Shown: in pieces, positions 21,757 through 55,083 of the stretch | Layout: the number at the start of each line of letters is the position of its first letter | Numbering within the stretch: position 1 is the first letter of the stretch | Source of the DNA: a virus | Strand: one strand, 5' to 3' | Virus record (IMG/VR): IMGVR_UViG_3300031578_000044 | Coordinates: 1-55,580 of that record | Length of the DNA: 55,580 nt | Position numbers and translations under genes: made by a program | Notes under the pieces: model-generated | What the model was told of the DNA's origin: nothing | Seen by the model: the letters and a program-made list of their open reading frames with translations, nothing else | The model's database searches: none

Positions 21757-21767
21757 CGTTGGAGGCC

Positions 21768-25624: not shown

Positions 25625-25625
25625 T

Positions 25626-33229: not shown

Positions 33230-35215
33230 ATGCCAGCGGAAGGATCAGGTAAAGCAATCGCCGGACCAGCGTCAACGACGGTTCGGACAAACGAGGGCGC
33301 ACGCGTCGTGGCTGAGGTGCCGAACCATCGGACTCAGGTTCGCATTGGCAAGCCGTCCCGGGTGGTCGTTGGATCGATGCGCTCGCAAAACAAGTCGAGC
33401 TTCCGAGCAAGGGTGGCCGCTTCTTGCGGCCCCGGCAGCGGTGGCTTTGGCGGGACCGGTGGCGCATACGGCGGTGGCGGTGGCGGTGGTGGTGGCGGCG
33501 GGTTCGGAGGCAACGGGGGTGGTGGCGCAGTTGCCCAAGCATCCGCGGGCAACTTCTATTCGCCCGAGCTGTCGACGGACTTCCTTGAGCTTCCGCAGTC
33601 TCTCAACGAGCAGTGGAACTACTACCGATTCTTCTACAACAACGAGCCGTTCGTCGGGCAGGCCCTTGACCTGCACACTGAGCTGCCGTTGTCGAAGGTC
33701 CGCCTTGCTCGCCCCAAGGCCAAAAGCAAGGCGCTTGCAGACCGGGCACTCCGTTTCTGCGAGAAGTGGGTCGAGGGCATCGGACTGCTGCAACGGCTGC
33801 TGGAGATCGTCCACGACTACTTCCTCATCGGGGAGGTCTACATCTTCTGCGAGGATGCCAACCCCGACATGCCTCGGGAGGTTCGGCAGAAGGTCGTCCG
33901 TCGCGTGGAGCACGACGGCACTCTCACAGAGCAGTGGATCGACCGCGAAGAGGCCGATGACCTCGCTGTTGAATGGCTCAAGCAGAACTACAAGGGGCTC
34001 ACGAACGTCCGCATCCTACCTCCTGAGCAGGTGCACATCCAGACGTTCCCGTTCACGGATGAAGTGATCATCGAGCTTATCCCTGACTCCAAGACGAAGC
34101 ACGTCCTCGAGATGGCTGAGCAGGGGGACCGCAACGCACAACGCGTGGCAGATTCTATGGACCCTGTGGTCATCGAGGCTCTTCGTCGCGGTGACAACAT
34201 CCCGCTGTCCACGGACCCTGATGGGGGCTCGTTCGTCCACTACATGGCGAACAAGAAGTCGCAGTACGAGCCGCGCGGCCACAGCATCCTCCAGCGATGC
34301 CTCCGTACGCTCGTGTACTTCGACAAACTCCGTCAGGCGCAGACGAGTATCGCTTCGCGCCACATGACTCCTGTGCGTCTCGTCTACGCCGAGGACATGA
34401 GCGAGGCCGACACGGAGAACCTGCGCGACCAGATTGACCTCGCGCTCCAAGACCCCGACTACTCGATCGTCACGAACTTCCAGGTCACCTGGGAGGAGAT
34501 GAACTCAAACGGCCGTCTCCTTGAGCTCACGGGAGAGTACGACCTCATCAGCCGTCAGCTCTACGCGGGCCTTGGTGTGACTGAGACGTTGCTCAACGGT
34601 GAGTCGAGCTACTCGGGTGACCGCATCAACCTCGAGGTCATCAACACGCGCTACATGCTGCTTCGTGAAAACGTGCAGCGCCTCGTCGAGCAGTACTTCT
34701 TCAAGCCGATGTGTCGACGCATGGGCTTCGTGGAGGAGGACGAGGACGGCGAGATGGTGGTCATCTACCCGAAGCTGAGCTTCACCAGGCTCGCGCTCCG
34801 GGACAATCAGGACACCTTCGATGCCCTGTTCCAGCTCTACCAGAAGGGCAGCCTGGACATCGAGACGATCCTCGACCTGCTCAACATCGACCCGGTCATG
34901 GTCAAGGAGCGCCTCGAGCGAGACTTCGCCACGTTCAACGATGCGCAGTTCAACGAAGTCCTTCGTTCGGTCTACGGCCGGTCGGGCGACCAACTCGCCG
35001 AGAACTCCAACATCGTCAACAAGATCGCGGAACAGCTCGGGCTCGAGTACAGCAAGCCCGAAGAGCCTGGCATGGGCCGATTCGCGTCCCTCAAGACCGC
35101 ATCAGAGGGGGGTCTCCAAATTGGTGACGACATGGTTTCCAAGATCGCTGATGCAGTGGTCGAACGGCTCATGGGGACGCGGAAGGCGCCCGGAGAGCCC
35201 TCTGACGAGTCTTAG
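33230..35215 (+). CDS. Portal protein
   Basis: This 661-residue protein is the likely portal, the dodecameric channel through which DNA enters and leaves the head. It follows the terminase, has typical portal length, and contains portal-like blocks: QWNYYRFFYNNEPFVGQALD, VHDYFLIGEVYIFCED, ILPPEQVHIQTFPF and DLISRQLYAGLGVTETLL. The start is ATG 33230 behind CAGGAGATGAG. Residues about 60-105 are an unusual Gly-rich spacer with a run of around eleven glycines near residue 88, after RARVAASCG. The C-terminal 60 residues look disordered. Confidence 0.85.
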   Translation: MPAEGSGKAIAGPASTTVRTNEGARVVAEVPNHRTQVRIGKPSRVVVGSMRSQNKSSFRARVAASCGPGSGGFGGTGGAYGGGGGGGGGGGFGGNGGGGAVAQASAGNFYSPELSTDFLELPQSLNEQWNYYRFFYNNEPFVGQALDLHTELPLSKVRLARPKAKSKALADRALRFCEKWVEGIGLLQRLLEIVHDYFLIGEVYIFCEDANPDMPREVRQKVVRRVEHDGTLTEQWIDREEADDLAVEWLKQNYKGLTNVRILPPEQVHIQTFPFTDEVIIELIPDSKTKHVLEMAEQGDRNAQRVADSMDPVVIEALRRGDNIPLSTDPDGGSFVHYMANKKSQYEPRGHSILQRCLRTLVYFDKLRQAQTSIASRHMTPVRLVYAEDMSEADTENLRDQIDLALQDPDYSIVTNFQVTWEEMNSNGRLLELTGEYDLISRQLYAGLGVTETLLNGESSYSGDRINLEVINTRYMLLRENVQRLVEQYFFKPMCRRMGFVEEDEDGEMVVIYPKLSFTRLALRDNQDTFDALFQLYQKGSLDIETILDLLNIDPVMVKERLERDFATFNDAQFNEVLRSVYGRSGDQLAENSNIVNKIAEQLGLEYSKPEEPGMGRFASLKTASEGGLQIGDDMVSKIADAVVERLMGTRKAPGEPSDES

Positions 35216-35216
35216 C

Positions 35217-35240
35217 GGTTTTCGGTCTATCGCGGCCCTT
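35217..35240 (+). promoter_or_regulatory. Putative late promoter motif, site D
   Basis: The sequence begins GGTTTTCGGTCTATCGC and ends GGCCCTT, immediately after the portal stop and 40 bases before the GTG at 35257. It matches site B at 19 of 24 positions. Confidence 0.45.
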
Positions 35241-35256: not shown

Positions 35257-37380
35257 GTGCCCCAGCCTGCGCCACAGAACTTCACGAAAATCGCTAACCG
35301 CGTCGTCCAGAGATGGATGCGGCGAAGTGTGCGTGTGGCCAAAGCGACGGGGACCAAGACCGGCCAAGGCGAATCGGTCGGGCTGTTCATCCCGCTCCCG
35401 AAGGACCTGGCCAAGCAGTTCCCAGACTTGGGGAAGAACGACTCTTCCCCCTCTCATGTCACCTTCCTCTACATCGGGGATTTCAAGGACAAGGAGCAGC
35501 AAGAAAAACTCGTCGAGGTCCTCCGCGAGACGATGCGGAAGTGGTGGCCCGGAGCCAAGGCCACCCTCAATGGCCTTGAGTACTTCGACCACCACGACAA
35601 GGACCGTCGTGTCCCCCACGTCGCCGTCGATTTCGACAAGGACCTGAGCGGGTTCAAACACCGCGTCAAGCAGGAACTCAGCGACGAAGGCATCGAGGTC
35701 GGTGACAAGTTCCCTGAGTTCAAGCCTCACGTCACCCTCTCGTACATGCCCGGCATGGACTCGGAGTGGGAAGGGGAGGTGCCCGAAGGGTCCTGGAACT
35801 TCGATGAGATGGAGGTCTGGGGGCTCCCCGAGCTCCACACCATCAAACTCGGACCCTCGGAGAAGAAGGTCGCCGCATCCTGGCTCCGAGGCAAGGTGGC
35901 CGGCTGGTGGGCCATCTCCCCCGGCAACCCAGGGATCAACCCGCCTCCCGTGGACAAGGGCGGCCTACTGAATGCACTCCCTGGCACAGACCCCGATAGC
36001 GCCCGCTACAACGGAGACGGGCCGGCTGACATCATGGGCAATGCGCTCGCTGCCGTGAACCAGGAGTATATTGACGCGTGGAAGCGTCCTGCGACTCCCG
36101 AGGAGATGCAGGCAGTCTTCGACTTCGTCTACGGAGGATTCGAGCGAGCACCCGAGCACTACCTCCCCAAAGGCGATTCTGTCAGCCTCCGGGTAGCGGC
36201 TCGTTACATGCAGTCTTCCGTCCATCGCAAAAACATCTCCCTCATGAAGTGGCTCTCGCAACTGACCCGTCGATTGGGGGTTGGCCGGGACACGTACGTC
36301 GTGGGTGGTGCTGTGCGGAACTTTTTGATCGATCAGCCGATCAAGGACATCGACATTGTCATCGATACCACGAAGGCTGGCCGTGACTCTGACTGGCTCG
36401 CCAAGCAGATCGCTCGCAACATCCCAGCTCCCACGAACGTCACCACGAATCAATATGGCGTCGCCATCCTGACCGTGAAGGGGACGTGGATGATCGGAGG
36501 GGACGACCTCAACGGCGAAGTCCTTGAGATCGCCAACGCTCGCAAGGAAAGCTATGGGGGCCAGGGCGGCAAGGGCTACAAGCCTCACGCAGTCGCCCCT
36601 GCCACAATCGATGAGGACGTGCTTCGACGCGAGTTCACGTTCAACACGCTGCTATGGCGCATGATGGACTTGGCCCATGGTCCTGACAAAGCCGAGATCA
36701 TCGACCTCACTGGCTGCGGTCGTCGTGACCTCGATCAGCGTGTGGTTCGTTGTCCGCAAGACCCCGACAAGGTGTTTTCGGATGACCCGACTCGGATGCT
36801 CCGGGCCATCAAGTTCACCGGCAAGTACGGCTTCAAGATTCCTCCCGATGTGGTGCGCTCCATCAAGCGCAACGTCTCCAAGCTCAAGCGCATGCCGTGG
36901 GAGGCTGTGGCGTCGATTCTCGTGAACGACGTGATGAGTCAGCCGACTGCTCGCAAGTCTCTCAAGCAGATGAAGGACCTTGGGTTGCTCGACACTGTGT
37001 CGGAGATGATCCAGGAGCAGAAGCCGTTCGCCACGTACATGAGCAACCAGCTCCGTCGCAACCGCAAGGTCCAGTTCTTGCTCGACCTCCTCGAGCTGGG
37101 CGTCCCCGCATCGACGCCGATCTCGTTTCTCGACCGCGCAGGCCAGCAGCGGTTGCGAGACCTGACTGTTTCGATGCCTGAGAAGGAGGCCGTCGCCTTC
37201 GTCGAGAATCTCATCAAGCCTCCTGTGGACAACAAGCGCATCATCGACGTGCTCAAGTTGGAGGGCCCCGATCGCCGTCACATCACCCCGACTGCTCGGC
37301 ATCTGATCCTGCAAAATCCCGAGCTCGCGTCCAAGGGACAGCATCTCACTGACGCTGTCATCAAGGGATTGAGGAAGTGA
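35257..37380 (+). CDS. 2H phosphoesterase / CCA-type nucleotidyltransferase fusion
   Basis: This 707-residue multidomain protein starts at GTG 35257. Residues 1-25 carry an RVA-like motif (KIANRVVQRWMRR). Residues about 35-205 form a 2H phosphoesterase with HVTFLYIGD and HVTLSYMPG; such enzymes cut or ligate 2',5' or cyclic phosphodiesters. A linker domain follows (YNGDGPADIMGNAL), then another motif (LRVAARYMQS). Residues about 340-560 are a class II CCA-adding or poly(A) polymerase fold: YVVGGAVRNFLI, DIDIVID, LRREFTFNTLLW and DDPTRMLRAIKFTG. The fusion suggests RNA or tRNA repair, or removal of nucleotide signals. Its stop overlaps the giant protein's start. Confidence 0.82.
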   Translation: MPQPAPQNFTKIANRVVQRWMRRSVRVAKATGTKTGQGESVGLFIPLPKDLAKQFPDLGKNDSSPSHVTFLYIGDFKDKEQQEKLVEVLRETMRKWWPGAKATLNGLEYFDHHDKDRRVPHVAVDFDKDLSGFKHRVKQELSDEGIEVGDKFPEFKPHVTLSYMPGMDSEWEGEVPEGSWNFDEMEVWGLPELHTIKLGPSEKKVAASWLRGKVAGWWAISPGNPGINPPPVDKGGLLNALPGTDPDSARYNGDGPADIMGNALAAVNQEYIDAWKRPATPEEMQAVFDFVYGGFERAPEHYLPKGDSVSLRVAARYMQSSVHRKNISLMKWLSQLTRRLGVGRDTYVVGGAVRNFLIDQPIKDIDIVIDTTKAGRDSDWLAKQIARNIPAPTNVTTNQYGVAILTVKGTWMIGGDDLNGEVLEIANARKESYGGQGGKGYKPHAVAPATIDEDVLRREFTFNTLLWRMMDLAHGPDKAEIIDLTGCGRRDLDQRVVRCPQDPDKVFSDDPTRMLRAIKFTGKYGFKIPPDVVRSIKRNVSKLKRMPWEAVASILVNDVMSQPTARKSLKQMKDLGLLDTVSEMIQEQKPFATYMSNQLRRNRKVQFLLDLLELGVPASTPISFLDRAGQQRLRDLTVSMPEKEAVAFVENLIKPPVDNKRIIDVLKLEGPDRRHITPTARHLILQNPELASKGQHLTDAVIKGLRK

Positions 37381-40300
37381 ACGCTCTCGTCGCACGCGTG
37401 GCTGCACGCCACATGGCTGCTCAGGATGATTTCTCCGTGGGCGACGAGGTGCTGTTTGGCAAGTACAAGAACAAGCGCGGCAAGATCGTGCGTCTGTTTG
37501 AGGATGAACGCGGCATCCCATCCGTCGAGATTGAGCCCATCCCCAAGGGTCGCAAACAGAACCGTGTGATCGGCCTCTACAAGATCTGGAAGGGCGACCA
37601 TCGCAAGCAGGCCGCGTACTCCAAGGAGTTTTTGGAGTTCGTTCAGGGACGCCGTTTCCAAAACCCCGACACCGGCAACCAAGTCTTGTTCCAGAGCCTT
37701 GAGGTTCCTGAGCAGGTCAAGATTTACCAGCAGTGGGGTGCCGCACAGAACGCCCAAGAAGAGAAGCCTGAGGGCCGAGAGCGCCACGAGCCCGGAAGGC
37801 TCCCGCCTGCGTGGAACCGTGACTCGGACATGGCACGTAAGGTAGAGAAACTCGCGGAAGAGTACGCGACGGAGTACGAGGATTTCTTTGACGGAATGCG
37901 ACAAGTGTCCGTGGAGGACGAGCGCTATCGAGGGGCCGAATTCGCGGGCGAGGCGGTTATGCTCCGCGAGTGGGACCGTCACATCCCTGGGTACGTGCGG
38001 TTGCCCCCCTCTTCCACTTTGGAGGCTATGAGCGACGAAGATCGGCGCATCGCGCTGACTTCATGGGACGCCGGTGTCAAGTTCATGGACGAGGTGCTTG
38101 GGGATGGTGAACGTCTTTCCCTTTTAGAGACCATGAAGCCTTCGGGAGAAGGAGGGTCGCTGGGGTCCCCCGGAGAAGGCTGGATCGACTCGACCCACAG
38201 CCCTGGAGCCCAACGTCTGCAAGGAGCTCTCCGAGAGTTGGGTATCGAGACACACCTGCCGTCTCGAGGCATCGAAGACCATGCAAAATGGCGTGACGAA
38301 GGGGCATCGAACGACCTACTCAAGAGTGCGTTGACGAAGGCGATGGCATGGCAACGCGCCTACTTCGCTGCGATGGGTGTTGAGGATGTGATGCTTTTCC
38401 GGGGAGCCAGTCTCGGTGACGAGGTGGCACGTCAACAGGAGCCCCACCCAACCGACAAACAGCAGAAATATCTTCCTCAAGGGATTCCGGTCACGTTGCA
38501 GAGTCGCCAGGAACTCTCGAGTTTCACGATGGACCCTTACGTTGCCTACAACTTCACTCATCGAAATCGGAGTCCGGGAGAGAGTGACGAGAGCTACGAG
38601 AGTCGGGCGGGGAATTCCCTTCGCGGAGCAGTGGCGTACCGGGTTCCTGTTGACCGGATTGTTTTGTCCCCAGCCGCAATCCCACAGCTCGGGCCTGCAA
38701 CTCCGAAAATCAAGGAGGGCTACCGAGAGGTCGAGTTCATTGTGGGGGGCATTGGGGAACTTGAAGGGCGCACGCTGCCTTCACTGGATGCGGGATACGG
38801 AGCGGGCCGGTACGACCCCGAGAAGATGAAGCTCGCGACCAAGATCACCATCGAGATGTCCGACGAAGACGAGGATGCGTGGCATAAGAGCGTGCGACGC
38901 GAGAACAAGGGCGACCGCCGCAAACAGGCCGCGTACTCCAAGGAGTTTTTGGACTCTGTGCAGGGGCAGCGGTTCCGCAACCCCGACACAGGCAACAAGG
39001 TCGTTTTCAAGTCGCTCTCCGAAGCAGAGCAACGGAAGATCCACGAGCGATGGGAGGCCCGTCATCGTAGCCAAGACGCGTCGGGGCCCACGGTGACAGA
39101 GCGCGGCCGTACCTTCGAGACAGGCAAGCCCGTTGCGTTTGAGTTCCTCCGCAACACTGAGAAGGCTCCCAAGGCCCCTTCGGATTCGGACCCGTACCAG
39201 CAGAAGATCGAGCCCGCAGGGTTCTATGTGACCCACAAGGACACGGACGGGGACCCACTCCCGGGCTACGACACGGGCACCATCAGTTTTCAGAACCCGC
39301 TCGTGCTCGCGGTCAACACCAACCCTGATGGCCCGATCTACGACGAGAACTCTTGGAAGGCGCAACTCGAGCGTCAGTACGGCAAGCGTGGAAAGGCCCT
39401 CACCAAGGCCCTCCAAGCTGACGGATACGACGGCATCGTGACCGTCACCCAAGTTCGTGGAAAGCCCTACACGTCCGAGATTGTTGTGCTCGACTCCGAA
39501 AAGTCTGTGCAGAAGGGCGACGACCGTAAGCGCAGGGCACAAGAGATCGCGGGCATGGGGTACGAGGCGGCGGCGCAGCTCGACAACGATGAACTTGATA
39601 GTGTGGCGTTTGGCGTGAAGCAGGGGGTCCAAGACCTTCGCATCGACCAGCTCAAGGTCAAGTACGACGCGGATCTTGAGCAGGCTGAGCATGCGGTGTC
39701 TCGAGAGCCCGACCGCTGGAAGGAACACCTTGATGAGCCTATTGAGGTCCGTTTCAAGGATGGGGAGTTCCACATCGAGGACGGCCACCATCGGTACGTG
39801 ACGGCCCAGCGCATGGGCCGCGACAGCGTGAAGGTGGACCTGACTATCGATGACAACCCTGTGAAGAAGATCTTTGAAATGGCCGGCAAGAAAATGGCTT
39901 CCTTCCATCGTGAAGCGTGCATCATCGCCGGCCGTCGGTTCGGAGACAGTCTGTGTCTCATCAAGAACCGCGACCGTGCCTACGACGCAGAGCTCGAGAT
40001 CGTGCACCTGGAGAAGGACGGCACCGAGATGGCTGTCATCCTCGATACCGTGACCGGGTACATGGAGGGCGTCAACGAGCACGGGATCGCGGTCGTCAAC
40101 ACAACTCTGATGGTTGTGCGCGACGAAGCCGAGGGCAAGAAGAAGTCCCCCAACGGAGACAAGGGCAAGAAGCCCCTCACGTCCAAGGACGGCCCCAAGA
40201 TCTACCGCGCCCTGGCGTGTGACAACATTGAGGATGCCCTTGAGTCCTTGCGCACGGACGACAACGGTATTCGGGGCCATACCTTCGTGGCCGACGGCAA

Positions 40301-43300
40301 CAAGTTGTTCTCCATTGAGTGCAGCAAGACGCACCCAGCTCGCGTAACGGAACTCGACCCAGACCGCGTCAACACTCGAACGAACCACGGCGTCTCGTAC
40401 CCCGATGCCGGGTACACGCACGGCGAGGACTACGTTAGTTCCGTCGTGCGTCGGTGGGAGGCACAGAAACGTCTGCAGGACATCAAGCGTCCTGAGGCGG
40501 CAGCCGTGGCCCTCATTGAGGCGATCGATGAGGCTGACAGCCCGTTCAATCCGGTCCGCACCACGGACAAGATGCGAACGACGAGCCAGCTTACCATCGA
40601 CACGACCAACCCGAGGTTGCTGCTCTATCTGATCCCTGGCCACGCCAAGGTCGTCAAGCGTCGCAACACGCTGCCGGATGGGCGCAAGCCCAAGATCCCT
40701 GTCCGTGTCTTCAAATACCGCAACAAGATGGAAGACCGGAAGAAGCCGGTCAACAAAGACGCCGCCTTGATCGAACGCGTCGCAGCCCGATCATTGGACA
40801 AGCTCCCCGGTGGGTTGGCCGATGAGAAGAAGCCTGAGGATTTCGATCCCGAACAGATCGCCAAGGGCACTAAGGTCGAGCTTGAGCATACGGATGACCG
40901 TGCAGTGGCCCGTGAAGTGGCGATGGATCATCTCACTGAGGACCCGAAGTACTACGACAAGCTTGAGACCATCGAGAAGCACGGCGCCCGCTACAAGTCC
41001 AAGAAGAAGGTCAAGACCAAGGACGGCGACGAGATGACGGTCTACGAGTACAGCGACCGTCAAATCGCTGATCGGAACCGGGGCAAAGCAGAACGCATCG
41101 AGAAACTGCGCAAGCAGATGAAGAAGCTCCAGACCAAGGTCCGCAAGGACGTGAACTCCAAGGACGAGAAGACTCGTGACCTCGCGCTGGCAGTCGGCTT
41201 GATGGACGAGACCTTTGAGCGTGTTGGCAACGACGGGAGCGCCAAGGAAGGCCACTTCGGCGTCACCACCTGGCGGGTGAAGCACATGACCTTCGGTAAG
41301 GGCGGCGTCACGATCACGTACGTCGGCAAGTCGGGGGTTGACCAGAAGAAGAAGGTCACGAACCCGCGCATCGTTTCGGGTCTCAAGGACGCCTGCAAAG
41401 ACAAGGAGCCCAACGCTTGCGTCCTGAGCGTCACGGCTTCCGAAGTCAACGAATACCTCAAGCCGCTCGACATCACCGCCAAGGACATCCGAGGGTTCCA
41501 CGCGAACCAGAAGATGAAAGAGGAACTCCGAAAGGTCCGCAAGGGGAAGCTCCCCGAAGACCCCAAGGAGAAAGAGAAGAAGCTCAAGGACGAGTTCAAG
41601 AGTGCCCTCGAGGCCACTGCTGACGCGGTAGGCCACGAGGCATCAACCTTGCGCAGCCAATACCTCGTCCCAGGCCTGGAGGATGACTACATGAGAGACG
41701 GGACCGTCAATGAGAGTCACACCAAAAAGGGCTCTACCCTCCACACCGCGGCGTTGGACGGAACCCCAACAGAGCGCCACATCCTTGCCCATGCCCAACT
41801 CGCTCCGGTCCTGGTAACCGCCAACCGACGTTGGTGGATTCAAAAAGCTCCGAACCTGTACCGAATCGCGCGTGAAGACGAGAGGCCGCGCCCCCATATC
41901 GAGGGTGTTCGTTTCCCGCCAGAGGTCTTCACAGTGCTCTGGTACGAGGACGACGACGGCAATCGCTATGAGATGCCCGAGGATGGTCCCGAGCATCCCG
42001 AAGGCGCCAAGTACCAACTCAGCCAGTTCCCGAACTACCTGCACGACAGCATGTTGCAGCTCAACGAGGATGGCACCTCTACGGAGATCATGAGCGGTCA
42101 GCGAGGGTTCCCTGAGGACCTTGTGACCTCCATGGTGCGCAGCGGCGAGTGGGACGTGGGCGACGCCATCATGGTCGGCGGCACGAGCTGCGAGCGCTGC
42201 ATGAACGTCTTGTGCAATCGCTACTTGGGCCCGGAGGAAGGCTACCCCTACGACTCGGAAGAGTATTGGCAGTGCGGGACCCGATGCGCCATGTGTGGGC
42301 ACGTCGACAACACCAACGAGCGGGTGGTCCGACAGCCCCGCTATGCGTCTCCGAGCTACGACAGTTACGTCCAGCGCAAGCGCAGAGAAGGCGGCCCTGT
42401 GCTGTCCCGTGATGAATGGGAAGCCAAGGTCATGGGCGTCGAAGATGACGCTGACGAGACCCCTGAGGCTACCCGTGAAGACTGGGAGGCCCGTCGCAAT
42501 GCTCTCATGGAGGAGCACGGCCTCGACAAGTTCCATTCGTCGTACCGTCCTGACGAGAAGCACATGACGATTGACCTCATCTCCGTTCCCAAGGAGAACA
42601 AGGGTCAAGGCAGTGCTTCAAAGGCCATGAAAGAGACGCTGGCGTGGGCTGACTCCAACGGCGTCACGGTCACGTTGTCGCCAACTTCTGAGTTCGGTGC
42701 CTCCAAGAAGCGCCTTGAGAAGTGGTATCGCAGCATGGGCTTCGTGCCGAACAAGGGGCGCAACAAAGACTTCCGGTTCACAGACGCGATGCTCCGCGAG
42801 CCGCAGGCCAAAACGGCCACGAAATCCGATGCGGAGAACGAAGATGAGGCGGTGGCGAAGATGCTCCGCAAGGAGCCCAAACTCAAGCCTCCGCGCTACG
42901 ACCTTCGTGACAACCGTACTCTCGACGACGACGACCCTGAGGACGATCTTGGCGGTGGCGATGACGGCGACCGCGACATGTCCATGAAGTGGAACAAGGT
43001 GGCGAGCCGCGTGGCTTTCCGTTGGACAGCGATTGGGCCTCGAGTCCCACGACCTGAACGCGTTGCTCGACTGTTCTTGGCGGAGGCGCCCCCAAAGGAC
43101 AAAGCCCAGCCCAAGAGCGGTCCGAGCTTCGAGGAGTGGGTCAAGAACCAGAAATTCAAGCACCCTGAGACCAGCAACGATGTTGGGTTCTCATCGCTCC
43201 CCTCTGACGAGCAGGCCAAGATCCGCGAGAAGTGGAAGGGTCAGCAACAGCCTGAGGATGAGAGCGGCAAGGACAAGGGGAAGGGTGATGAGGATGCGAA

Positions 43301-46300
43301 GCGCACCAAAGAAGACGTGCAGGTCGACCTCAATAACGCGCGCGACGAGATGCGGGACCTAGAGTCCCAGATGGGCGACATCGAGAACGAGATCAAAGAC
43401 CTCGAGGCCAAACTTAAAGGGTTCAAGCAGTACGAAAATCTCTCAGGCGATGCCAAGAAGCAGATAGACGAGCATGTTCGGGACACCCAACGTGCCATTG
43501 GCCGCAAGAAGGATGAACTTGAGGACAAGAAGGAAGAGTTCGACGAAGCGAAGGAGAAGGTCAAAGAGCTCAGGGCTGAGCGAAAGGACCCCGGCTTCGC
43601 TCAAGCCAAGCGCAAGGAGCAGGCTCGCAAGCAGCGAGCCGAACGGGTGAGCCGTGCTGTCCTCAAGGCGCAAGGAGACATGCAGAAACTCCTCGGTAAC
43701 GAGGATACCCAGATCCCAGGGGTCCTTGCCAAGCAGATTGCCAAGGCACTCAACAACCTCGATGAGTCTGAGGTGGAGTCCTTTTCGATTGATTTTCAGG
43801 ACACGCTCCAAAAGTTGATGGGGATGGACTCGAGTTCGGATGAGGCACTTGAGTTGGCGTCTCAAGCCGCCAAGTTTGGTGACCTCCATGGCCTTACTGA
43901 TCCGGGGGAGTTGGCCGTGCGAATGGCTCAGCTCAGCTATGCGCAGAACGTCGTCGCCAATCCGATGAACATCGGGGGAAAGCCGGTCGGCGTCACGGAG
44001 ATGGACAGTGACAAGTACGCCGAACGTGCTCGCGCATCCTACGACCAGTTTCAGAACCTGCCGTCCTCTTTGCGTACGCAGGCTGCGAGGCAAGTGACGG
44101 AGGCGCTCGAGGGTCTGGACCCTGAGACGCACCGCTCACAGGAACTCAATGCCATTTTGACGGGCATGAACCTTGCTCAGGTGGCGGCGACGGGGGACTC
44201 CCTCCCAGGGCGCCCTCAACCGAGCAAAGGGATGGCGTCAGTCATCCAAGCGATGGCTGAAAAGGGCGATGTTGATGCCCTCTTCACTACTTCGGAGGAC
44301 TACTTTGCAGAGCAAGCTCGCGGGAAGATGGAGAAGAGTCTTGATGACATGACGCCACTTGAGGTGGCTCAGTTGGCCACACAAGGGGATTCCAATCACG
44401 GCTACGCGGGGATGGTCAAATTGATTGAGGAGGAGTCTACGCCTGATGTCATGAGAGCCATGATGAAAGACTATCTTATCCAAGACATCCTCAACGATCA
44501 GTGGGGCGACCGAGCCATCCGCGACACGATGCAGGCTGCGGGTCTTGTGGATGCTGATGACCCCGAGGTACGCGCAGGAGTGGTGGGTGAAGCTAACGAG
44601 CGCATGAAGCCTCGGATGGAGCAGATGCTTGAGGCGCGGGAGCGTATTGCTCAAGCCGAGAAAGAAGGCAAAAAACCGGATCCCGAAGACGAGGCCATTG
44701 TTGCAGGCGTCTTGGACAAGGAAAAGGGTACCGGTCTACGTGAGAAGGCGAAGGCTGTTCTCGATACGATCAAGGACAAGTTCAAGAAGGTCGTCATCTC
44801 CCCGGCGAGCGCGGTGCTCCAGCACTTCGTCAACACGGGTGACCGAAAAGTGCTCGAGCAAGAGACGCTGCCACATCCTGATGAGAAGGCCAAAGCACCT
44901 CGTCCCAAGGAAGAGCGTGATGAGGCTCGTGGAGGCGAGAGCACGGCACCGAAGTCGAAGCGCGAGCGCATGATCGAACGTGTGCGTCTCAAGGCTGAGA
45001 GGGTCAAGCTCAAGGCACAGCGCGACAAGGTGAAGGGCGACGAGAAGGGCAAGTACGACGAGAAGATCAAGGACCTCGATGGGAAGATCGAGGGCCTGTC
45101 GAAAGAGCCTGAGAGCGACGAGTCCGAGAGCGAGCAGCCCAAATCCCGCGAGGATTACCGAGCGAAGTTCGATGGCTCGACGTGGGGTGACGACGACGCG
45201 GGCACCGAGTACCACGTCGGGGATCTCATCCATAAGGCTGAGTCCAAGGAGGTCGAAGAGGTTCCGATCGCGGACATCGAGGAGAGCCTCAAGAATATCT
45301 CGGCAGACGAGCCGGTGGGTTCGCCCGAGTTCAAAGAGCGAGCTGACAAGGCCGACCTCAAGTATCCCGTCGTTCTCATGCGACAGGAAGACGGCTCCCT
45401 CGAGATCGTGGATGGCTCCCATCGAGCTTGGAAGGCACGCGAGACGAAGCAGCCGTTGAAGGCTCGGATTCTGGAGCCCGCCGATCTTGAAGATCTTGAG
45501 CAGGTCTCCGACGCTGATCGTGAAAAGTGGGACGAAAACGTCGAGTCTCAGGACGACGAGGAGCACGGCCCCGGCGACGTTTGGGAGACCGAGCAGGGCA
45601 ACTGGCGCGCCAAGAACCCGGACGGCGTCCCCAAATCATTCAAGGACAAGGACAAGGCTGAGATCTACGCCAAGGGCCCAGACGAGAAGGAGTCCGAGGG
45701 GAGCGCTGAGAAGCCCAAGGGAGCGCCCGACGAGGCTGAGGGGAAAGGCCAAGCCGAGAAGGACGAAACGGCTGAGGGAGCGTCTGAGGGAGCGTCTGAG
45801 GGCGCCTCTGAGAAGCCCAAACAGCAGCGCCGGGCCGTCAAGGACGAGCACTTCGACCGCACGCAGGATGCTGTGGACTCCGTAGGAGCACCCATCCAGG
45901 AGAGCTTTACGAAGCTGGCGGACGACCCTGCTTTCCTCAAGATGAGCCCGCAAGAGCGATACACGCGTCTCGGAGAGACGCTCAAGGAGGCCATTCCTGG
46001 TGCTCGAGCGATCCAAGTGCCTGGGGCCGGTTCTAACGCTCCCATCAGCATCACGGTGCCCGAGGAACACCGAGCTCCCGGCGTGACCTCCCGGCAGAAG
46101 ATTCGCTTGCAGCCCAACAGCACGGGTGGCGAGGCGTCGGGTAAGGGCGGCCATCTGGGGCTCGGTGTGAAGGACCTGCTTGAGGCCAAGACGCCCGAGG
46201 AGATCAAGAATGCGACTGCGCGGGTCATGGGCACGATGGTGCATGAGATGACCCACATTTACGGGCATCATGGGACCAACCCCGATGAGTTTGACGATGA

Positions 46301-46754
46301 GGACAAGAAGGTGCGCCACATCCGATACATCTCGGACCCGGGGGAGATGCGGGCCCACGCGAAGGAATTCGCGTGGCGTTACGCTCAGGACCACCCCGAT
46401 GAGGGGGAGGTCGACATCGACAAATTAGAAGAGGCTCACAAGGGAGTGGGTAAGGATTGGAAGATCCGGCAGTACTTCCAACAGCTCGGTGACAAGGAAG
46501 TCCAAGCCAAGTACGACCCTGAGGTCCAGAAGCTCATGCAGGACACGCATGAGGAGATGGGCGACTTGGTGCAGCACTACGTCGACGAGTACCGGAAGCG
46601 CAATGGCCAACAGCGCAAGATGGGGAGCCGCGTGGCCCAAGCGTGGCTCGAGAAGGAACGTCCCGTTCGCATGGCGAATGACTGGTTGGCACACGTCCGT
46701 TCGTTCCATCCAGACGACCCAAAACGTCCGATTGTCGTGCTCGACGCGGCTTGA
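37377..46754 (+). CDS. Giant polyvalent protein (3125 aa): ART, ParB-like, Ntn-hydrolase, TopoIB, GNAT, metalloprotease
   Basis: This very long protein starts at GTG 37377 and fits the 'polyvalent protein' concept: multidomain phage proteins delivered with DNA. In order I see: RVAARHM motif; small SH3-like domain (VGDEVLFGKYKNKRG); NPDTGN module 1; ADP-ribosyltransferase with Arg342, Ser381/382 and E451-x-E453; NPDTGN module 2; second ART-like module (about 575-710); ParB-like domain (DGHHRY, 802); C45-type Ntn-hydrolase with Cys848; RVAARS motif and DUF5661-like segment; topoisomerase IB (Arg1282, Lys1318, Arg1372, His1420, Tyr1429); Cys-rich segment; GNAT domain (about 1705-1815); motif pair near 1876-1900; module 3; coiled coil; helical region; second ParB-like domain (DGSHRAW, 2679); zinc metalloprotease (HEMTH, 2956-2960); final RVAQAWL. 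Probably packaged in the head. Confidence 0.85.
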   Translation: MNALVARVAARHMAAQDDFSVGDEVLFGKYKNKRGKIVRLFEDERGIPSVEIEPIPKGRKQNRVIGLYKIWKGDHRKQAAYSKEFLEFVQGRRFQNPDTGNQVLFQSLEVPEQVKIYQQWGAAQNAQEEKPEGRERHEPGRLPPAWNRDSDMARKVEKLAEEYATEYEDFFDGMRQVSVEDERYRGAEFAGEAVMLREWDRHIPGYVRLPPSSTLEAMSDEDRRIALTSWDAGVKFMDEVLGDGERLSLLETMKPSGEGGSLGSPGEGWIDSTHSPGAQRLQGALRELGIETHLPSRGIEDHAKWRDEGASNDLLKSALTKAMAWQRAYFAAMGVEDVMLFRGASLGDEVARQQEPHPTDKQQKYLPQGIPVTLQSRQELSSFTMDPYVAYNFTHRNRSPGESDESYESRAGNSLRGAVAYRVPVDRIVLSPAAIPQLGPATPKIKEGYREVEFIVGGIGELEGRTLPSLDAGYGAGRYDPEKMKLATKITIEMSDEDEDAWHKSVRRENKGDRRKQAAYSKEFLDSVQGQRFRNPDTGNKVVFKSLSEAEQRKIHERWEARHRSQDASGPTVTERGRTFETGKPVAFEFLRNTEKAPKAPSDSDPYQQKIEPAGFYVTHKDTDGDPLPGYDTGTISFQNPLVLAVNTNPDGPIYDENSWKAQLERQYGKRGKALTKALQADGYDGIVTVTQVRGKPYTSEIVVLDSEKSVQKGDDRKRRAQEIAGMGYEAAAQLDNDELDSVAFGVKQGVQDLRIDQLKVKYDADLEQAEHAVSREPDRWKEHLDEPIEVRFKDGEFHIEDGHHRYVTAQRMGRDSVKVDLTIDDNPVKKIFEMAGKKMASFHREACIIAGRRFGDSLCLIKNRDRAYDAELEIVHLEKDGTEMAVILDTVTGYMEGVNEHGIAVVNTTLMVVRDEAEGKKKSPNGDKGKKPLTSKDGPKIYRALACDNIEDALESLRTDDNGIRGHTFVADGNKLFSIECSKTHPARVTELDPDRVNTRTNHGVSYPDAGYTHGEDYVSSVVRRWEAQKRLQDIKRPEAAAVALIEAIDEADSPFNPVRTTDKMRTTSQLTIDTTNPRLLLYLIPGHAKVVKRRNTLPDGRKPKIPVRVFKYRNKMEDRKKPVNKDAALIERVAARSLDKLPGGLADEKKPEDFDPEQIAKGTKVELEHTDDRAVAREVAMDHLTEDPKYYDKLETIEKHGARYKSKKKVKTKDGDEMTVYEYSDRQIADRNRGKAERIEKLRKQMKKLQTKVRKDVNSKDEKTRDLALAVGLMDETFERVGNDGSAKEGHFGVTTWRVKHMTFGKGGVTITYVGKSGVDQKKKVTNPRIVSGLKDACKDKEPNACVLSVTASEVNEYLKPLDITAKDIRGFHANQKMKEELRKVRKGKLPEDPKEKEKKLKDEFKSALEATADAVGHEASTLRSQYLVPGLEDDYMRDGTVNESHTKKGSTLHTAALDGTPTERHILAHAQLAPVLVTANRRWWIQKAPNLYRIAREDERPRPHIEGVRFPPEVFTVLWYEDDDGNRYEMPEDGPEHPEGAKYQLSQFPNYLHDSMLQLNEDGTSTEIMSGQRGFPEDLVTSMVRSGEWDVGDAIMVGGTSCERCMNVLCNRYLGPEEGYPYDSEEYWQCGTRCAMCGHVDNTNERVVRQPRYASPSYDSYVQRKRREGGPVLSRDEWEAKVMGVEDDADETPEATREDWEARRNALMEEHGLDKFHSSYRPDEKHMTIDLISVPKENKGQGSASKAMKETLAWADSNGVTVTLSPTSEFGASKKRLEKWYRSMGFVPNKGRNKDFRFTDAMLREPQAKTATKSDAENEDEAVAKMLRKEPKLKPPRYDLRDNRTLDDDDPEDDLGGGDDGDRDMSMKWNKVASRVAFRWTAIGPRVPRPERVARLFLAEAPPKDKAQPKSGPSFEEWVKNQKFKHPETSNDVGFSSLPSDEQAKIREKWKGQQQPEDESGKDKGKGDEDAKRTKEDVQVDLNNARDEMRDLESQMGDIENEIKDLEAKLKGFKQYENLSGDAKKQIDEHVRDTQRAIGRKKDELEDKKEEFDEAKEKVKELRAERKDPGFAQAKRKEQARKQRAERVSRAVLKAQGDMQKLLGNEDTQIPGVLAKQIAKALNNLDESEVESFSIDFQDTLQKLMGMDSSSDEALELASQAAKFGDLHGLTDPGELAVRMAQLSYAQNVVANPMNIGGKPVGVTEMDSDKYAERARASYDQFQNLPSSLRTQAARQVTEALEGLDPETHRSQELNAILTGMNLAQVAATGDSLPGRPQPSKGMASVIQAMAEKGDVDALFTTSEDYFAEQARGKMEKSLDDMTPLEVAQLATQGDSNHGYAGMVKLIEEESTPDVMRAMMKDYLIQDILNDQWGDRAIRDTMQAAGLVDADDPEVRAGVVGEANERMKPRMEQMLEARERIAQAEKEGKKPDPEDEAIVAGVLDKEKGTGLREKAKAVLDTIKDKFKKVVISPASAVLQHFVNTGDRKVLEQETLPHPDEKAKAPRPKEERDEARGGESTAPKSKRERMIERVRLKAERVKLKAQRDKVKGDEKGKYDEKIKDLDGKIEGLSKEPESDESESEQPKSREDYRAKFDGSTWGDDDAGTEYHVGDLIHKAESKEVEEVPIADIEESLKNISADEPVGSPEFKERADKADLKYPVVLMRQEDGSLEIVDGSHRAWKARETKQPLKARILEPADLEDLEQVSDADREKWDENVESQDDEEHGPGDVWETEQGNWRAKNPDGVPKSFKDKDKAEIYAKGPDEKESEGSAEKPKGAPDEAEGKGQAEKDETAEGASEGASEGASEKPKQQRRAVKDEHFDRTQDAVDSVGAPIQESFTKLADDPAFLKMSPQERYTRLGETLKEAIPGARAIQVPGAGSNAPISITVPEEHRAPGVTSRQKIRLQPNSTGGEASGKGGHLGLGVKDLLEAKTPEEIKNATARVMGTMVHEMTHIYGHHGTNPDEFDDEDKKVRHIRYISDPGEMRAHAKEFAWRYAQDHPDEGEVDIDKLEEAHKGVGKDWKIRQYFQQLGDKEVQAKYDPEVQKLMQDTHEEMGDLVQHYVDEYRKRNGQQRKMGSRVAQAWLEKERPVRMANDWLAHVRSFHPDDPKRPIVVLDAA
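37597..37737 (+). repeat. NP(D/E)T(G/S)N module, copy 1 of 3
   Basis: This coding repeat inside the giant gene encodes AAYSKEFLEFVQGRRFQNPD and then TGNQVLFQSL...EQVKIYQQW. Copy 2 is at 38911-39054 and copy 3 at 43108-43236. Copies 1 and 2 also share most bases over the first 80 positions, so they arose by a fairly recent duplication. Confidence 0.85.
38911..39054 (+). repeat. NP(D/E)T(G/S)N module, copy 2 of 3
   Basis: It encodes AAYSKEFLDSVQGQRFRNPD and then TGNKVVFKSL...EQRKIHERW. It sits just after the first ADP-ribosyltransferase domain and before the second ART-like module, so it acts as a separator. Confidence 0.85.
43108..43236 (+). repeat. NP(D/E)T(G/S)N module, copy 3 of 3 (diverged)
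   Basis: It encodes SFEEWVKNQKFKHPETSNDV and then GFSSLPSDEQAKIREKW. It lies after the GNAT domain and the motif pair, and before the coiled-coil region. It is clearly related to copies 1 and 2 at protein level but not at base level. Confidence 0.75.
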
Positions 46755-46766
46755 AGGTCGAAAAAC

Positions 46767-46813
46767 CTTCCTTAGAAACCTCCTTTGGCCCTCGGTCAAG
46801 GTTTCTAAGGAAG
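46767..46813. repeat. 15-bp perfect inverted repeat
   Basis: CTTCCTTAGAAACCT (46767-46781) pairs perfectly with AGGTTTCTAAGGAAG (46799-46813) across a 17-base loop. No T-tract follows on the + strand. On the minus strand the stem is followed by five T residues (complement of 46761-46765). It could therefore stop antisense transcription, or act as an RNA processing or protein-binding site. Confidence 0.7.
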
Positions 46814-46975
46814 CAAACCATCCCTAGCAGGCCCTAAGTAGGTTTTCCGTCCTCAGAAGGTGCGGTTGAACTTCCTTGGAGGGGTCTAGGTGCTCAGACC
46901 TTCCCTGAGAACCTTGGTCGAGGTCTGACCGAGGGTGTCGGGGAAGGTTTGTGAACTGAAAAGTGCGGATTATTC

Positions 46976-47000
46976 CGTTTTTCACCTTATAGCGCGACCC
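46976..47000 (+). promoter_or_regulatory. Putative late promoter motif, site E
   Basis: The sequence begins CGTTTTTCACCTTATAGC and ends GCGACCC. It shares the TTTTC and TTATAG elements with site C. It lies 93 bases before the next start, further than the other sites, with a hairpin in between. Confidence 0.4.
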
Positions 47001-47068
47001 AAATAGACGAAGGGCTGCCCCTCCTCTCGGAGGGTCTCTGTGCGCCCATTTTCGCCAGGAGAAATTCA

Positions 47069-47578
47069 ATGCCGGATCAGCTCACGAAACAAGGCGCCTT
47101 GCAGGTCTCGAGCGACCTCGACCGCCTCGCCACCCTCTTCCAATCTGAAACCGACACTCTTGGGGTAACCGAGAAGATCGCCAAGGACTTCGCCCTTCGT
47201 TGCGACATCCTGGCCGATCATGTCGAGAAGAAGGCTGGAGTCGAGCGCGACGAGGACGGCACCATCAAGGACCCCGACCTCAACAAGTACGCCTCTGCAC
47301 TCTCCAAGCGGGCCCAGATGGACCCCACGAAGAACATCTCCATCGACCACGGCAGCGGTTTCAACCCCGCCGAGATCGGTGAGGAGCAGTCCAAGGCCCT
47401 TCTGCGCAATCAAGACGAGCCCTACATGGACGTCTTCAAGCAGGACGAGTTCGACCAGCTTCGTGAAGTTCAGCAGAACGGCATGTTCTCGAACGCGAAG
47501 TCGGCAGCCGCCGTCATCGCCAAAATGGCCAAGCTGCTCAGCGACAACAACATCAAGTTCCCTGTCGCCGTCGGCTAA
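47069..47578 (+). CDS. Hypothetical virion protein (169 aa)
   Basis: This protein starts at ATG 47069 after CAGGAGAAATTC. It is mostly helical and acidic, with a segment FNPAEIGEEQSKALLRNQDE then MDVFKQDEFDQLREVQQNG. I recall related proteins in other large phages, but without an assigned function. It opens the gene run leading to protease, scaffold and capsid, so a head-assembly role is likely. Confidence 0.65.
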   Translation: MPDQLTKQGALQVSSDLDRLATLFQSETDTLGVTEKIAKDFALRCDILADHVEKKAGVERDEDGTIKDPDLNKYASALSKRAQMDPTKNISIDHGSGFNPAEIGEEQSKALLRNQDEPYMDVFKQDEFDQLREVQQNGMFSNAKSAAAVIAKMAKLLSDNNIKFPVAVG

Positions 47579-49278: not shown

Positions 49279-50787
49279 ATGGCGTTCTCTAAGACCGCTC
49301 GAGCAGACGTGACGCAGCCTTCGTGGTCGATGGACCATTGGGGCAACTTCGTGCAGCAAGCGCGTGGGCGCGTTCGTACTGCTTCAGGTTCCCCGAACCT
49401 GGTGTCCCAGGCATCGGAGATCCTCCAAGAGAACTTCTCTCCCGAGAAGTACCTCCTGACGCACGCGACCATCGTGGCGTCGGTGGATACCGATGACGTG
49501 CAGAACGTCAAGCTCGGGAACATCAACGAGCTCGGTCGCAAGGTGAATCGCCGGTGGGCGAACTACCGCATCAAGCCGGGCTGCGACATCTACATCAACA
49601 ACAACCACGACGCGTGGGACCGACCGGTGCTCCTCAAGAGCTACCGAACCTTCGTCGGCGCCCACAACTTCGTGGAGCACGTTCAGATCGAGGACCAGTC
49701 GAAGGGCCGCATCATCGATGCTGCTGCCCGCGACATCGGCGACTCGGTCTACGTGGACATCCTCATCGCGACCAACCGCCGTCACTCGAGCCTGATTCGG
49801 GACATCGAAGCTGGCCGCATGAACACGATGAGCATGGGCTGCTCCGTCACGGAAACGATCTGCACGAAGTGCGGGAACGTGGCCGCCGACGAGACGGAGA
49901 TGTGCGAGCACGTCAAGTACGCCAAGGGGCAGTACGAGTACGACTCGTTGGGACGCAAGTACCGAGTGGCCGAACTCTGCGGCCATAGTGACATCGACCC
50001 CACAGGCGGCGTGACGTTCATCGAAGCGTCATGGGTCGCGGTCCCTGCTTTCCAGGGTGCCGTGATGCGCAACATCCTTGCGCCAGGCTCCATCAACTTG
50101 GATACGCGGAGTCAGATGCAGAAGGTGCTCTCAGAGCCCCCTTCGCAGTGGACTGCCGACGATGATCAAATGGCCAAGGCCGCTCGCACACTCGAAGTGA
50201 CGTTCGATGAGAACTCCCTCGATGCTGTGCAGCTCGCCGAGCGCCGTCGCCTCCAGCGTATTGCTGAGATGCCCGCCATGCCTGAGATGCCCCCAATGGG
50301 TGCTCCGGGCGAAGGTGGCGCACCAGGCGGTGAAGAAGCTGACCCGATGAAGGATCTCGAGGACGAGATCGAGAAGTACGTCCTCGACAAGATCAAGAAG
50401 AAGATTCGGGACAAGATGGTTTCGGAGGAGGACGAGGACCAGGTTTCCGAAGAGGAACTTGCCACGTCGTCCAACGAGAACATCAACCACCAAGCAGCCA
50501 AAGTCGCTGCACTGACGAACGGTACGAAGACCCTTCTTCGCATCGCTCGCTCTGACGTGGAGTTGCTCGACGGGATGGCCCGTCTCCAGCAAAGCCACGG
50601 CATCAAAGTTTCGAGAGAACTGTACAGGACCGCCCTCCGGGTCGGGTCTACCGACGGGCACCCCTCTCTCGAAAAGTACCTCGTGCAATGTGCCGAGGTG
50701 CTTGGTCACAACCCAAACACGGGAGAATCCAAGACCTTGGTGCGTCTTGGGCGAATCCTTTCAATGCGAAAGAAGACCCGGTTCTAG
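49279..50787 (+). CDS. Capsid maturation (prohead) protease
   Basis: This 502-residue protein looks like the phage head maturation protease. The N-terminal domain has a candidate catalytic His in NFVEHVQIEDQSKG (about residue 134) and a candidate Ser in MNTMSMGCSV (about residue 185), the His-Ser layout of prohead serine proteases. A Cys/His cluster follows (CTKCGN, MCEHVKY, LCGHSD), then FIEASWVAVPAFQGAVMRN. The second half is acidic and helical and may act as a scaffold domain. The gene lies two genes before a decoration candidate and the capsid gene, as expected. Exact catalytic residues are inferred, not proven. Confidence 0.72.
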   Translation: MAFSKTARADVTQPSWSMDHWGNFVQQARGRVRTASGSPNLVSQASEILQENFSPEKYLLTHATIVASVDTDDVQNVKLGNINELGRKVNRRWANYRIKPGCDIYINNNHDAWDRPVLLKSYRTFVGAHNFVEHVQIEDQSKGRIIDAAARDIGDSVYVDILIATNRRHSSLIRDIEAGRMNTMSMGCSVTETICTKCGNVAADETEMCEHVKYAKGQYEYDSLGRKYRVAELCGHSDIDPTGGVTFIEASWVAVPAFQGAVMRNILAPGSINLDTRSQMQKVLSEPPSQWTADDDQMAKAARTLEVTFDENSLDAVQLAERRRLQRIAEMPAMPEMPPMGAPGEGGAPGGEEADPMKDLEDEIEKYVLDKIKKKIRDKMVSEEDEDQVSEEELATSSNENINHQAAKVAALTNGTKTLLRIARSDVELLDGMARLQQSHGIKVSRELYRTALRVGSTDGHPSLEKYLVQCAEVLGHNPNTGESKTLVRLGRILSMRKKTRF

Positions 50788-52264: not shown

Positions 52265-52454
52265 TCAGAGAGTTCTCCAGGTCGAAGGGGCTTTTAGTTT
52301 CCCTATAAGCCCTTTCGACCTCGGTAAAGCCCCTATCTGGGGACCATATATGTGAATGACGAGGTTTCGGGTCGGTAGCGTGAATTGATCTTATTCCGAG
52401 ATCAGCCGACACGAACCCCATCACACTCAGCCAGTAAACAAGGAGCACAGCGAT
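52265..52454. other. Structured leader before the decoration and capsid genes
   Basis: There is no gene in these 190 bases. GGTCGAAGGGGCTT (52280-52293) pairs with AAGCCCTTTCGACC (52307-52320), with one G-T pair and a 13-base loop. CCCC/GGGG (52330-52333 and 52339-52342) forms a small hairpin. GTCGG (52371-52375) and TGATCT (52386-52391) pair with AGATCA (52399-52404) and CCGAC (52406-52410). The TTTTAG...CCCTATAAGCCCTTT stretch (52292-52315) resembles the putative late motif. AGGAGC precedes ATG 52455. Confidence 0.55.
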
Positions 52455-53129: not shown

Positions 53130-54005
53130 ATGACCGGTGTATCCAACGCTGTGAAGCAAAAACTCATCTCCGAGTACATCAAGACCCCCGCGGGTCGTGC
53201 CAAGCTCGCTGCCTCTCTGACGCAGCCGCTCCGTACTCGGCGAGACTACACCTCGGTAGGCCGCAAGACCTTTTTGGTCGAGCAGCTCCCCGATGGTGCC
53301 CTGCCCATCTACGACAAAGACCCGGACGTGACAGCGTACGTGGTCGGCGAGGAAGGCGAGAACATCATCGCCGTCACCAAGCCACGTCGTGTGATTTTTC
53401 CGTTGTTCGAGATCGCCTCGAACCCGGAGATTCCACTCACCCAAATCAAGGAGCGTCGTTTCGATCTGATCGAGCGTGCTCAGGATCTTGCGCGTGCGCA
53501 GATCCAGGCTGCCGAAGACGAGCGCGTCTTCGCTGTCCTTGATGCCATCGCCACCAACGGGTTCGACTCGATCCCCGGTGGTACCAACCCCGACATTCCA
53601 GTGGTCGCTCCGATCTCTGGTGCGGTGCTGGCCGACGCCTTCGCTCTCATCGAGCGCCACGACCTCCGGGTCGCGCGCGTGTACATGAACGCGCGGGACT
53701 ACGCCGACATCAGGAAGTTTGGCCGCGATATTCTCGACATCGAGAGTCAGGCCACGCTGCTCAAGACCGGCCTCCAGGCTACCCTTTGGGGTGCCCAGGT
53801 CATCACGAGTCGCATCGTTCCTGCTGGCACCGTCTATGTATGTTGCGAACCTGAAATGTTCGGTAGGATTCCGGTCCGCACCGAGCTGACCGTCCTCTCT
53901 GCGGACGATCCCAAGGCTCGGACCATTGGCTTCAGTGTGTTCGAAAACTTGGGTATTGGTGCGTATAACCCGCGTGGGTTGACTCGCCTCACCGTGACCC
54001 GCTAG
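53130..54005 (+). CDS. Major capsid protein (HK97-fold type)
   Basis: This 291-residue protein is the likely major capsid protein. It has a strong ribosome-binding sequence (AGGAAAGGAGAGAG) before ATG 53130. The N-terminal arm is helical (AVKQKLISEYIKTPAGRAKL). The core has a long spine-helix candidate (FDLIERAQDLARAQIQAAED), a loop with GTNPDIPVV, and a beta-rich C-terminal part (LWGAQVITSRIVPAGTVYVC, GFSVFENLGIGAYNPRGLTR). Size and layout match HK97-fold capsid proteins of large myoviruses. It follows protease, scaffold and decoration genes and is followed by a strong terminator. Confidence 0.8.
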   Translation: MTGVSNAVKQKLISEYIKTPAGRAKLAASLTQPLRTRRDYTSVGRKTFLVEQLPDGALPIYDKDPDVTAYVVGEEGENIIAVTKPRRVIFPLFEIASNPEIPLTQIKERRFDLIERAQDLARAQIQAAEDERVFAVLDAIATNGFDSIPGGTNPDIPVVAPISGAVLADAFALIERHDLRVARVYMNARDYADIRKFGRDILDIESQATLLKTGLQATLWGAQVITSRIVPAGTVYVCCEPEMFGRIPVRTELTVLSADDPKARTIGFSVFENLGIGAYNPRGLTRLTVTR

Positions 54006-54031
54006 TAGCGGCAGAACGGCCAAACAAGGGA

Positions 54032-54065
54032 AGCCCTCACTCTTCGGAGTGGGGGCTTTTCCTTT
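54032..54065 (+). terminator. Strong Rho-independent terminator after the capsid gene
   Basis: AGCCCTCACTC (54032-54042) pairs with GAGTGGGGGCT (54047-54057) over 11 bp with one G-T pair, around a stable TTCG tetraloop (54043-54046). The stem is followed by TTTT and CCTTT. It ends the capsid transcript and separates the homing endonuclease from it. Confidence 0.9.
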
Positions 54066-54108: not shown

Positions 54109-55083
54109 ATGCGTGCCATCCCGTGTCCCATCACCAAAGCCGAACTCGAGCAGCTCTATCTCGGCGAGAAACTCACCGACGACGAGGTCGCAGTCCGTAT
54201 CGGCAAGGAGGCGACAGCCAAGCGTGTGCGCTCATGGAGGAAGCGTCTGGGCATTCGCACGCTCCAGCGGTGGGAACGGTACGACGTGCCTCCGATCGAG
54301 GGGCGTCTCAAGTCGCTGCTCGTGGGATCGATGCTCGGTGACGGGAGGCTCGTCCACAGGACGCACGCGACCCACTACACGGAGAACCACGAGGACGACC
54401 AGAAACCCTATCTTGAGTGGAAAATGGCTCAGTGGGGCTCCTGGGTCCGCGTGGAGCCCAAGCACGTAGACAAGACGAAGGACGGCAAGACATACCGGTC
54501 TTGGCGGTTCCACACGGTCGCCCATGAGGCCCTGAACGACTGGCAAGCGTTGTTCTACGAGAACCGTGATCGAGGGTGGAAGATCCTTGTGCCCGAACTC
54601 GTGGATCACGTCGATGAATTCGCGCTCGCCATCTGGTACCTCGATGACGGCTACGCGGGGTGGTGGCCCGAGTACCTTTTCGGTTCGACAGCCGAGAGCC
54701 GCAAAGTGGCATGGGCGATCTTTGAGAAGTTCGGGCTCAAACCTCGGTGGCAATTCGTCAAAGAGATGGAGGGACGTGAAACTGGCAAGTTCCACATGGA
54801 GCGCGAGGACACAGCCGAGCGTTTTCTTGAGATCGTGCGCCCGCACGTCCCGGCCTGCATGGCCTACAAGGTCAAGAGCTTCGGTTACAACAGCGGGCGC
54901 AACAACATCATCAAGGGCAAGCTCGACCCCGAGGTCTTGCGCGAGCTGGCGGCCGAGGGGATTCCGATCCGACGCATGGCCAAGTTGTTCGGGGTCGGGG
55001 GCGCGACCATCGACCGACATCTCAAGAAGCATGGCATCGAGCACGCGAGAACCAAAGGGAACCCGCGCCACAGGACCCCATGA
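54109..55083 (+). CDS. LAGLIDADG homing endonuclease, free-standing
   Basis: This 324-residue protein has two LAGLIDADG helices: LLVGSMLGDGRL (about residues 65-80) and LAIWYLDDGYAG (about residues 172-183), each with its catalytic Asp. Residues 5-48 form a helix-turn-helix-like region (KLTDDEVAVRIGK), and the C-terminus has another (PIRRMAKLFGVGGATIDRHL) that may help bind DNA. It is not inside an intron or intein. It lies downstream of the capsid gene behind a terminator, a typical insertion site of mobile free-standing endonucleases. It is likely self-propagating rather than needed by the phage. Confidence 0.88.
   Translation: MRAIPCPITKAELEQLYLGEKLTDDEVAVRIGKEATAKRVRSWRKRLGIRTLQRWERYDVPPIEGRLKSLLVGSMLGDGRLVHRTHATHYTENHEDDQKPYLEWKMAQWGSWVRVEPKHVDKTKDGKTYRSWRFHTVAHEALNDWQALFYENRDRGWKILVPELVDHVDEFALAIWYLDDGYAGWWPEYLFGSTAESRKVAWAIFEKFGLKPRWQFVKEMEGRETGKFHMEREDTAERFLEIVRPHVPACMAYKVKSFGYNSGRNNIIKGKLDPEVLRELAAEGIPIRRMAKLFGVGGATIDRHLKKHGIEHARTKGNPRHRTP

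Follow-up and report, generated by a model that had tools for sequence, protein, structure and literature searches.

In a viral genome with closely spaced genes, a long non-coding gap between two groups of genes raises the question of what it does there. The gap considered here lies on the + strand between the stop codon of a giant gene and the ATG of the first gene of the head cluster (Table 1), and no clear gap of greater length occurs in the window, i.e. the whole stretch of 55,580 nucleotides that was analyzed. A preliminary description of this DNA had placed a gap of 314 bases after the giant gene, and this length is exact, since the gap runs from the end of the frame 37377-46754 to the ATG at 47069. 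Further gaps of about 180-220 nt are present, e.g. at 52265-52454. Whole-contig scans used the 102,757-bp viral contig IMGVR_UViG_3300031673_000006, of which bases 1-55580 are the window.

The gap is preceded by genes for a terminase (30546), a portal protein (33230), a nucleotidyltransferase-like protein (35257) and the giant protein (37377). It is followed by the gene for a 169-aa protein (47069), two unknown genes, the gene for a prohead protease-like protein, two further unknown genes, and the capsid gene. Within the giant protein, which is encoded between the portal and the head genes, the topoisomerase IB core is of the eukaryotic type and the AAT domain is acyl-transferase-like. In homologs of the protease-like gene (L006 4603-7647, L008, L009, L015, L029, L062 and L003), large insertions at about residue 108 or residues 193-219 interrupt the gene, which suggests inteins or introns. 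Directly 3' of the capsid gene lies a strong hairpin with a TTCG loop and a T-rich tail (54028-54061), which is likely an intrinsic terminator, and a homing-endonuclease-like gene with LAGLIDADG/HNH matches (54109-55083) adjoins this side as well.

Among the matches listed, the capsid protein is at least 90% identical to those of at least 80 contigs of up to 619 kb; its identity is 91% with the capsid protein of a 485-kb uncultured phage and 38% with that of Bacillus phage G. No relatives were found in bacterial genome contigs, and a nucleotide search against named phages gave no match. Within the window, an Rfam search returned no match to any curated model, riboswitch or other, and a search for tRNA and tmRNA returned nothing.

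Table 1. Positions of the features discussed, in the window unless a related contig is named
Feature	Position	Strand	Remarks
Sigma-70 region-4-like protein	21145-21756	+	Pfam PF04545, E 5e-10; PDB sequence matches SigF, FliA
Promoter-motif site	21766-21784	+	46 nt before gene 21812
Promoter-motif site	25624-25642	+	42 nt before gene 25666
Promoter-motif site	35215-35233	+	42 nt before gene 35257, which the giant gene directly follows
Giant gene	37377-46754	+	3125-aa polyvalent protein; topoisomerase IB core (aa 1232-1424), DUF5661, AAT domain
Hairpin H1	46767-46813	+	15-bp perfect stem and 5 inner pairs; no U-run behind
Hairpin H2	46890-46956	+	long imperfect stem; 46881-46960 folds at -42.3 kcal/mol; contains both overlapping stems
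Short inverted repeat GAAAA...TTTTC	46958-46983	+	around upstream half of the element; also in L006, L008, L009
Promoter-like element CCGTTTTTCACCTTATAG	46975-46992	+	18 bp; -10-like CTTATA at 46986-46991
Conserved leader	46993-47068	+	AAATAnnCGAAGGGCTGCC block; hairpin CCCTCC/GGAGGG at 47019-47034; Shine-Dalgarno AGGAG at 47057-47061
First head-cluster gene	47069-47578	+	169 aa; function unknown; conserved across the clade
Prohead protease-like protein	49279-50787	+	phrog_18299, E 1.2e-11
Variant promoter-like element TTTTAGTTTCCCTATAAG	52280-52320	+	inverted-repeat loop, upstream of 52455 and capsid gene
Major capsid protein	53130-54005	+	
Homologous gap, L006 (141-kb contig)	2115-2460		
Homologous gap, L008 (619-kb contig)	2140-2481		
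Homologous gap, L009 (73-kb contig)	1977-2291		

Hairpins downstream of the giant gene

The gap as a whole folds at -136.4 kcal/mol (z = -5.40), a value reached by none of 100 shuffles. This signal comes from two stretches, the first 80 nt of the gap (z -4.1) and positions 46875-46954 (z -6.0), and around 46881-46960 the second-strongest 80-nt fold of the window is found. In the first stretch, hairpin H1 contains the 15-bp perfect inverted repeat 46767-46781/46799-46813 that had been described before, and its length is exact: in 200 dinucleotide shuffles the best perfect repeat reached 10 bp and none reached 15 bp. The recurrence of the ACCTTCC element (46765 and 46898) and its complement (46942) was likewise seen again. 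H1 is likely an mRNA 3' end, either as a terminator or as a processing hairpin. It is not a standard intrinsic terminator, i.e. a G+C-rich hairpin followed by a U-run, because the sequence 3' of its stem, CAAACCATCC, holds no U-run on the + strand; terminator prediction on the + strand of the gap gave no call.

In the second stretch, H2 contains the stems 46894-46901/46921-46928 and 46898-46908/46938-46948. These have positions 46898-46901 in common and are formally exclusive, as claimed in the preliminary description, yet they are unbalanced. The second stem is contained in the free fold, whereas enforcing the first, short stem results in -21.1 kcal/mol. At 21 kcal/mol above the free fold, the short stem would therefore be a transient intermediate at most.

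Directly 3' of the stop codon of the giant gene, a hairpin is also present in L006 (z -3.1) and, with unrelated sequence, in L008 (z -4.0), but not in L009. L006 keeps the core stem of H1 with a double substitution from U-A to C-G and with one base pair deleted on both sides. The upstream hairpins are kept in position, not in sequence, in two of the three relatives. Over the two overlapping stems only L006 aligns, and its best fold differs; the H2 stretch has a z of +0.48 in L006, and L008 has a simple 16-bp hairpin there instead.

A recurrent promoter-like motif on the coding strand

The most conserved part of the gap is the element 46975-46992, which is absent from the preliminary description. 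It is 94, 78 and 78% identical to its counterparts in L006, L008 and L009, respectively, compared with 80, 68 and 51% for the adjacent coding DNA and 39-62% for the hairpin part of the gap. The alignment of the relatives shows the leader 3' of the element to be conserved, too. Standard sigma-70 promoters were not found between 37000 and 55580, where 2.8 are expected by chance.

The element is a member of a recurrent motif with the consensus CGGTTTTCGnCYTATAG. A position weight matrix (PWM), for which some sites were chosen by eye beforehand and whose scan was compared with mononucleotide shuffles, finds ten sites above 12 bits in the 102,757-bp contig (21766, 25624, 35215, 46975, 65871, 79363, 91587, 95203, 99269 and 100598). 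All are on the + strand, the best site on the minus strand reaching 10.4 bits. For eight of them, the start codon of an ORF of 90 aa or more follows 28-94 nt downstream. The regular expression KTTTTCNNYYTAT matches four times in the window, always on the coding strand and never in shuffles; four related contigs have six, five, nine and three matches, and the reversed control has none in those four. At 20 of 23 such sites an ORF starts at most 130 nt downstream, and most sites closely follow the stop codon of the preceding gene. Beyond the source contig, the motif recurs in the three related contigs of 141, 619 and 73 kb. The conserved positions are C-G-K-TTTTC and YY-TAT; further down come CCC and a stretch rich in purines, within which the ribosome-binding site lies.

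The first site, at 21766, comes after the replication genes, and none is found in the replication region (1-21 kb); many of the genes downstream of the sites have no known function. The motif shows what is looked for in phage late promoters, namely recurrence upstream of genes on the coding strand, and together with its absence from the replication region this suggests a late promoter. That it is a promoter, as well as its lateness and its start site, we infer from the sequence. A search of open-access papers found no description of the motif, which appears to be a previously undescribed phage promoter motif.

In more distant relatives the pattern is less clear. When the PWM was trained without the tested group, it picked the aligned site before the homolog of 47069 in all 17 relatives, with p <= 0.006 in 15 of them. 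This result is weaker than it looks because the sites had first been aligned by eye, mononucleotide shuffles were used, and several relatives have coding sequence at this position. In these coding cases, found in several distant relatives, the site falls either at the 3' end of the giant gene or within a fused frame, and protein constraint could mimic a promoter-like site there. Motif variants tuned to distant relatives recur weakly or not at all in their own genomes, with two further sites in one contig. A secure claim for the promoter motif is limited to the window's own subclade. In L014, L016, L017, L042, L044, L046, L063 and L144, the giant gene and the homolog of 47069 form one open frame, which contains the aligned promoter-like site and an internal ATG.

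In another gap, 52265-52454, a long inverted repeat carries the promoter-like sequence TTTAGTTTCCCTATA in its loop, and the same arrangement precedes the homolog of 52455 in L006, L007, L008, L009, L011 and L061. The stems of this repeat vary in sequence between relatives yet still pair. Just upstream of the ATG at 52455 and of its homologs in about 20 contigs, an element of the CCTGTAAACAGGGAG type is deeply conserved; it overlaps the ribosome-binding site of the gene preceding the capsid gene.

A candidate late transcription factor

The best candidate for a late transcription factor is the protein encoded at 21145-21756, whose assignment to sigma-70 family region 4 is borne out by its sequence matches and whose action at the motif is conjectural. 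A sigma-region-4-like protein is encoded in 13 of 15 related contigs, and a second conserved block in the alignment resembles another helix-turn-helix. The structure model is all-helical and of moderate confidence (mean pLDDT 78). Foldseek matches it to sigma region 4, though the E-values are poor (best 0.13). Sigma region 2 had no match in this protein or in its contig. In nine related contigs, a search limited to RNA polymerase of the multisubunit type found none. A sliding-clamp-like gene is present at 14865-16013.

The -10 box of T4-type late promoters is TATAAATA. The motif does not belong to this type, as it instead has CYTATAG and, immediately 5' of the -10-like core, an additional TTTTC block. 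The resemblance to T4 appears to be one of working, not of membership. T4 divides its late sigma factor between gp55 and gp33, a mimic of sigma-4, and these act with the sliding clamp gp45 at promoters without a -35 element (PMC2988020). As in T4, the putative promoters are compact, their recognition would be confined to the -10 side without evident -35 conservation, and they precede virion genes; host polymerase, a phage factor resembling a sigma domain, as proposed here, and a sliding-clamp-like gene would complete the likeness. Unlike in T4, the sigma-like protein is region-4-like with recognizable similarity to sigma sequences, and the contig yielded no region-2 partner for it. Late promoters of AR9, a phiKZ-type jumbo phage, have the consensus AACA-6N-TA/G (PMC5312081). 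In AR9-type large phages, too, a short recurrent motif defines late promoters, but the consensus is unrelated and this clade's contigs yielded no multisubunit phage RNA polymerase.

The gap as a probable boundary between transcripts

The gap is probably an operon boundary, at which H1 and H2 close the transcript of the giant gene and 46975-46992, as a late promoter, starts that of the head genes. Since motif sites precede both the operon of the giant gene (35215) and the head genes (46975), the hairpins would lie between two promoter-driven units. A transcript from 35215 would carry the nucleotidyltransferase-like and giant genes, and the hairpins beside the stop codon of the giant gene probably end or process this mRNA. 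From 46975-46992, a head-gene transcript with a conserved leader of roughly 70 nt would start. The motif would represent a promoter class of a subclade of huge phages. Host RNA polymerase would probably read it after reprogramming by a phage factor, the best candidate being the sigma-region-4-like protein. Against this reading stand the lack of a U-run behind H1, the lack of H1 in L009, and the lack of a detected region 2 in the sigma-like protein.

The same long stems without U-runs (about 20 bp in H1, two long perfect stems in L008) would also suit a junction at which giant and head genes share one transcript and host RNase III cuts the hairpins, or the hairpins protect 3' ends, with the conserved element acting in RNA, in the leader or in ribosome loading, and not as a promoter. 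The early mRNA of T7 has intercistronic hairpins processed by RNase III. These are similarly long and intergenic and have no U-run, but those of the gap are unrelated in sequence and lie just upstream of a conserved promoter-like element. The conservation of the leader fits such a junction as well, whereas the element is found again in front of many unrelated genes that have no such hairpins, only on the coding strand and with a -10-like core. RNA processing, already proposed in the preliminary description, is thus a live option for the hairpins, while as an account of the whole gap it is rather unlikely. Given its size, its inverted repeats and the compactness of the genome, the non-coding gap could also be a DNA-level site for packaging, origin function or recombination, with RNA folding as incidental. 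Nothing turned up in favor of the packaging site raised in the preliminary description. A fixed DNA site would be conserved, however, whereas the hairpin sequence differs between relatives and the conserved DNA consists only of the recurrent motif and the leader, which makes this reading very improbable.

Hardly any weight can be given to the attenuator or switch suggested in the preliminary description, in which alternation of the overlapping stems would control how much transcription of the giant gene reads on into the head genes. The two stems have bases in common, but the 21 kcal/mol between the folds, the failure of L006 and L008 to keep the arrangement, and the absence of a terminator U-run all argue against it. 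Moreover, a capsid mRNA started at the promoter-like element would not contain the stems, as these are located 5' of it. The associated proposal that the gap controls the ratio between giant protein and capsid finds no support as to the switch mechanism but is right in spirit, as the gap is structured and regulatory-looking and its likely role is to separate the expression of giant and head genes.

On a more speculative view, which we advance only tentatively, the whole clade would share a late system with a compact promoter class (CGTTT..C-C-n-ATA type), host polymerase and a duplicated sigma-region-4 protein without region 2; in some members the head promoter would lie inside the fused giant-plus-head frame, giving two products per locus.

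Almost all that is known of these phages comes from metagenomes. With a promoter consensus, their operons and the timing of their genes could be deduced from sequence, and the conserved candidate factor would provide a directly testable mechanism of late transcription.
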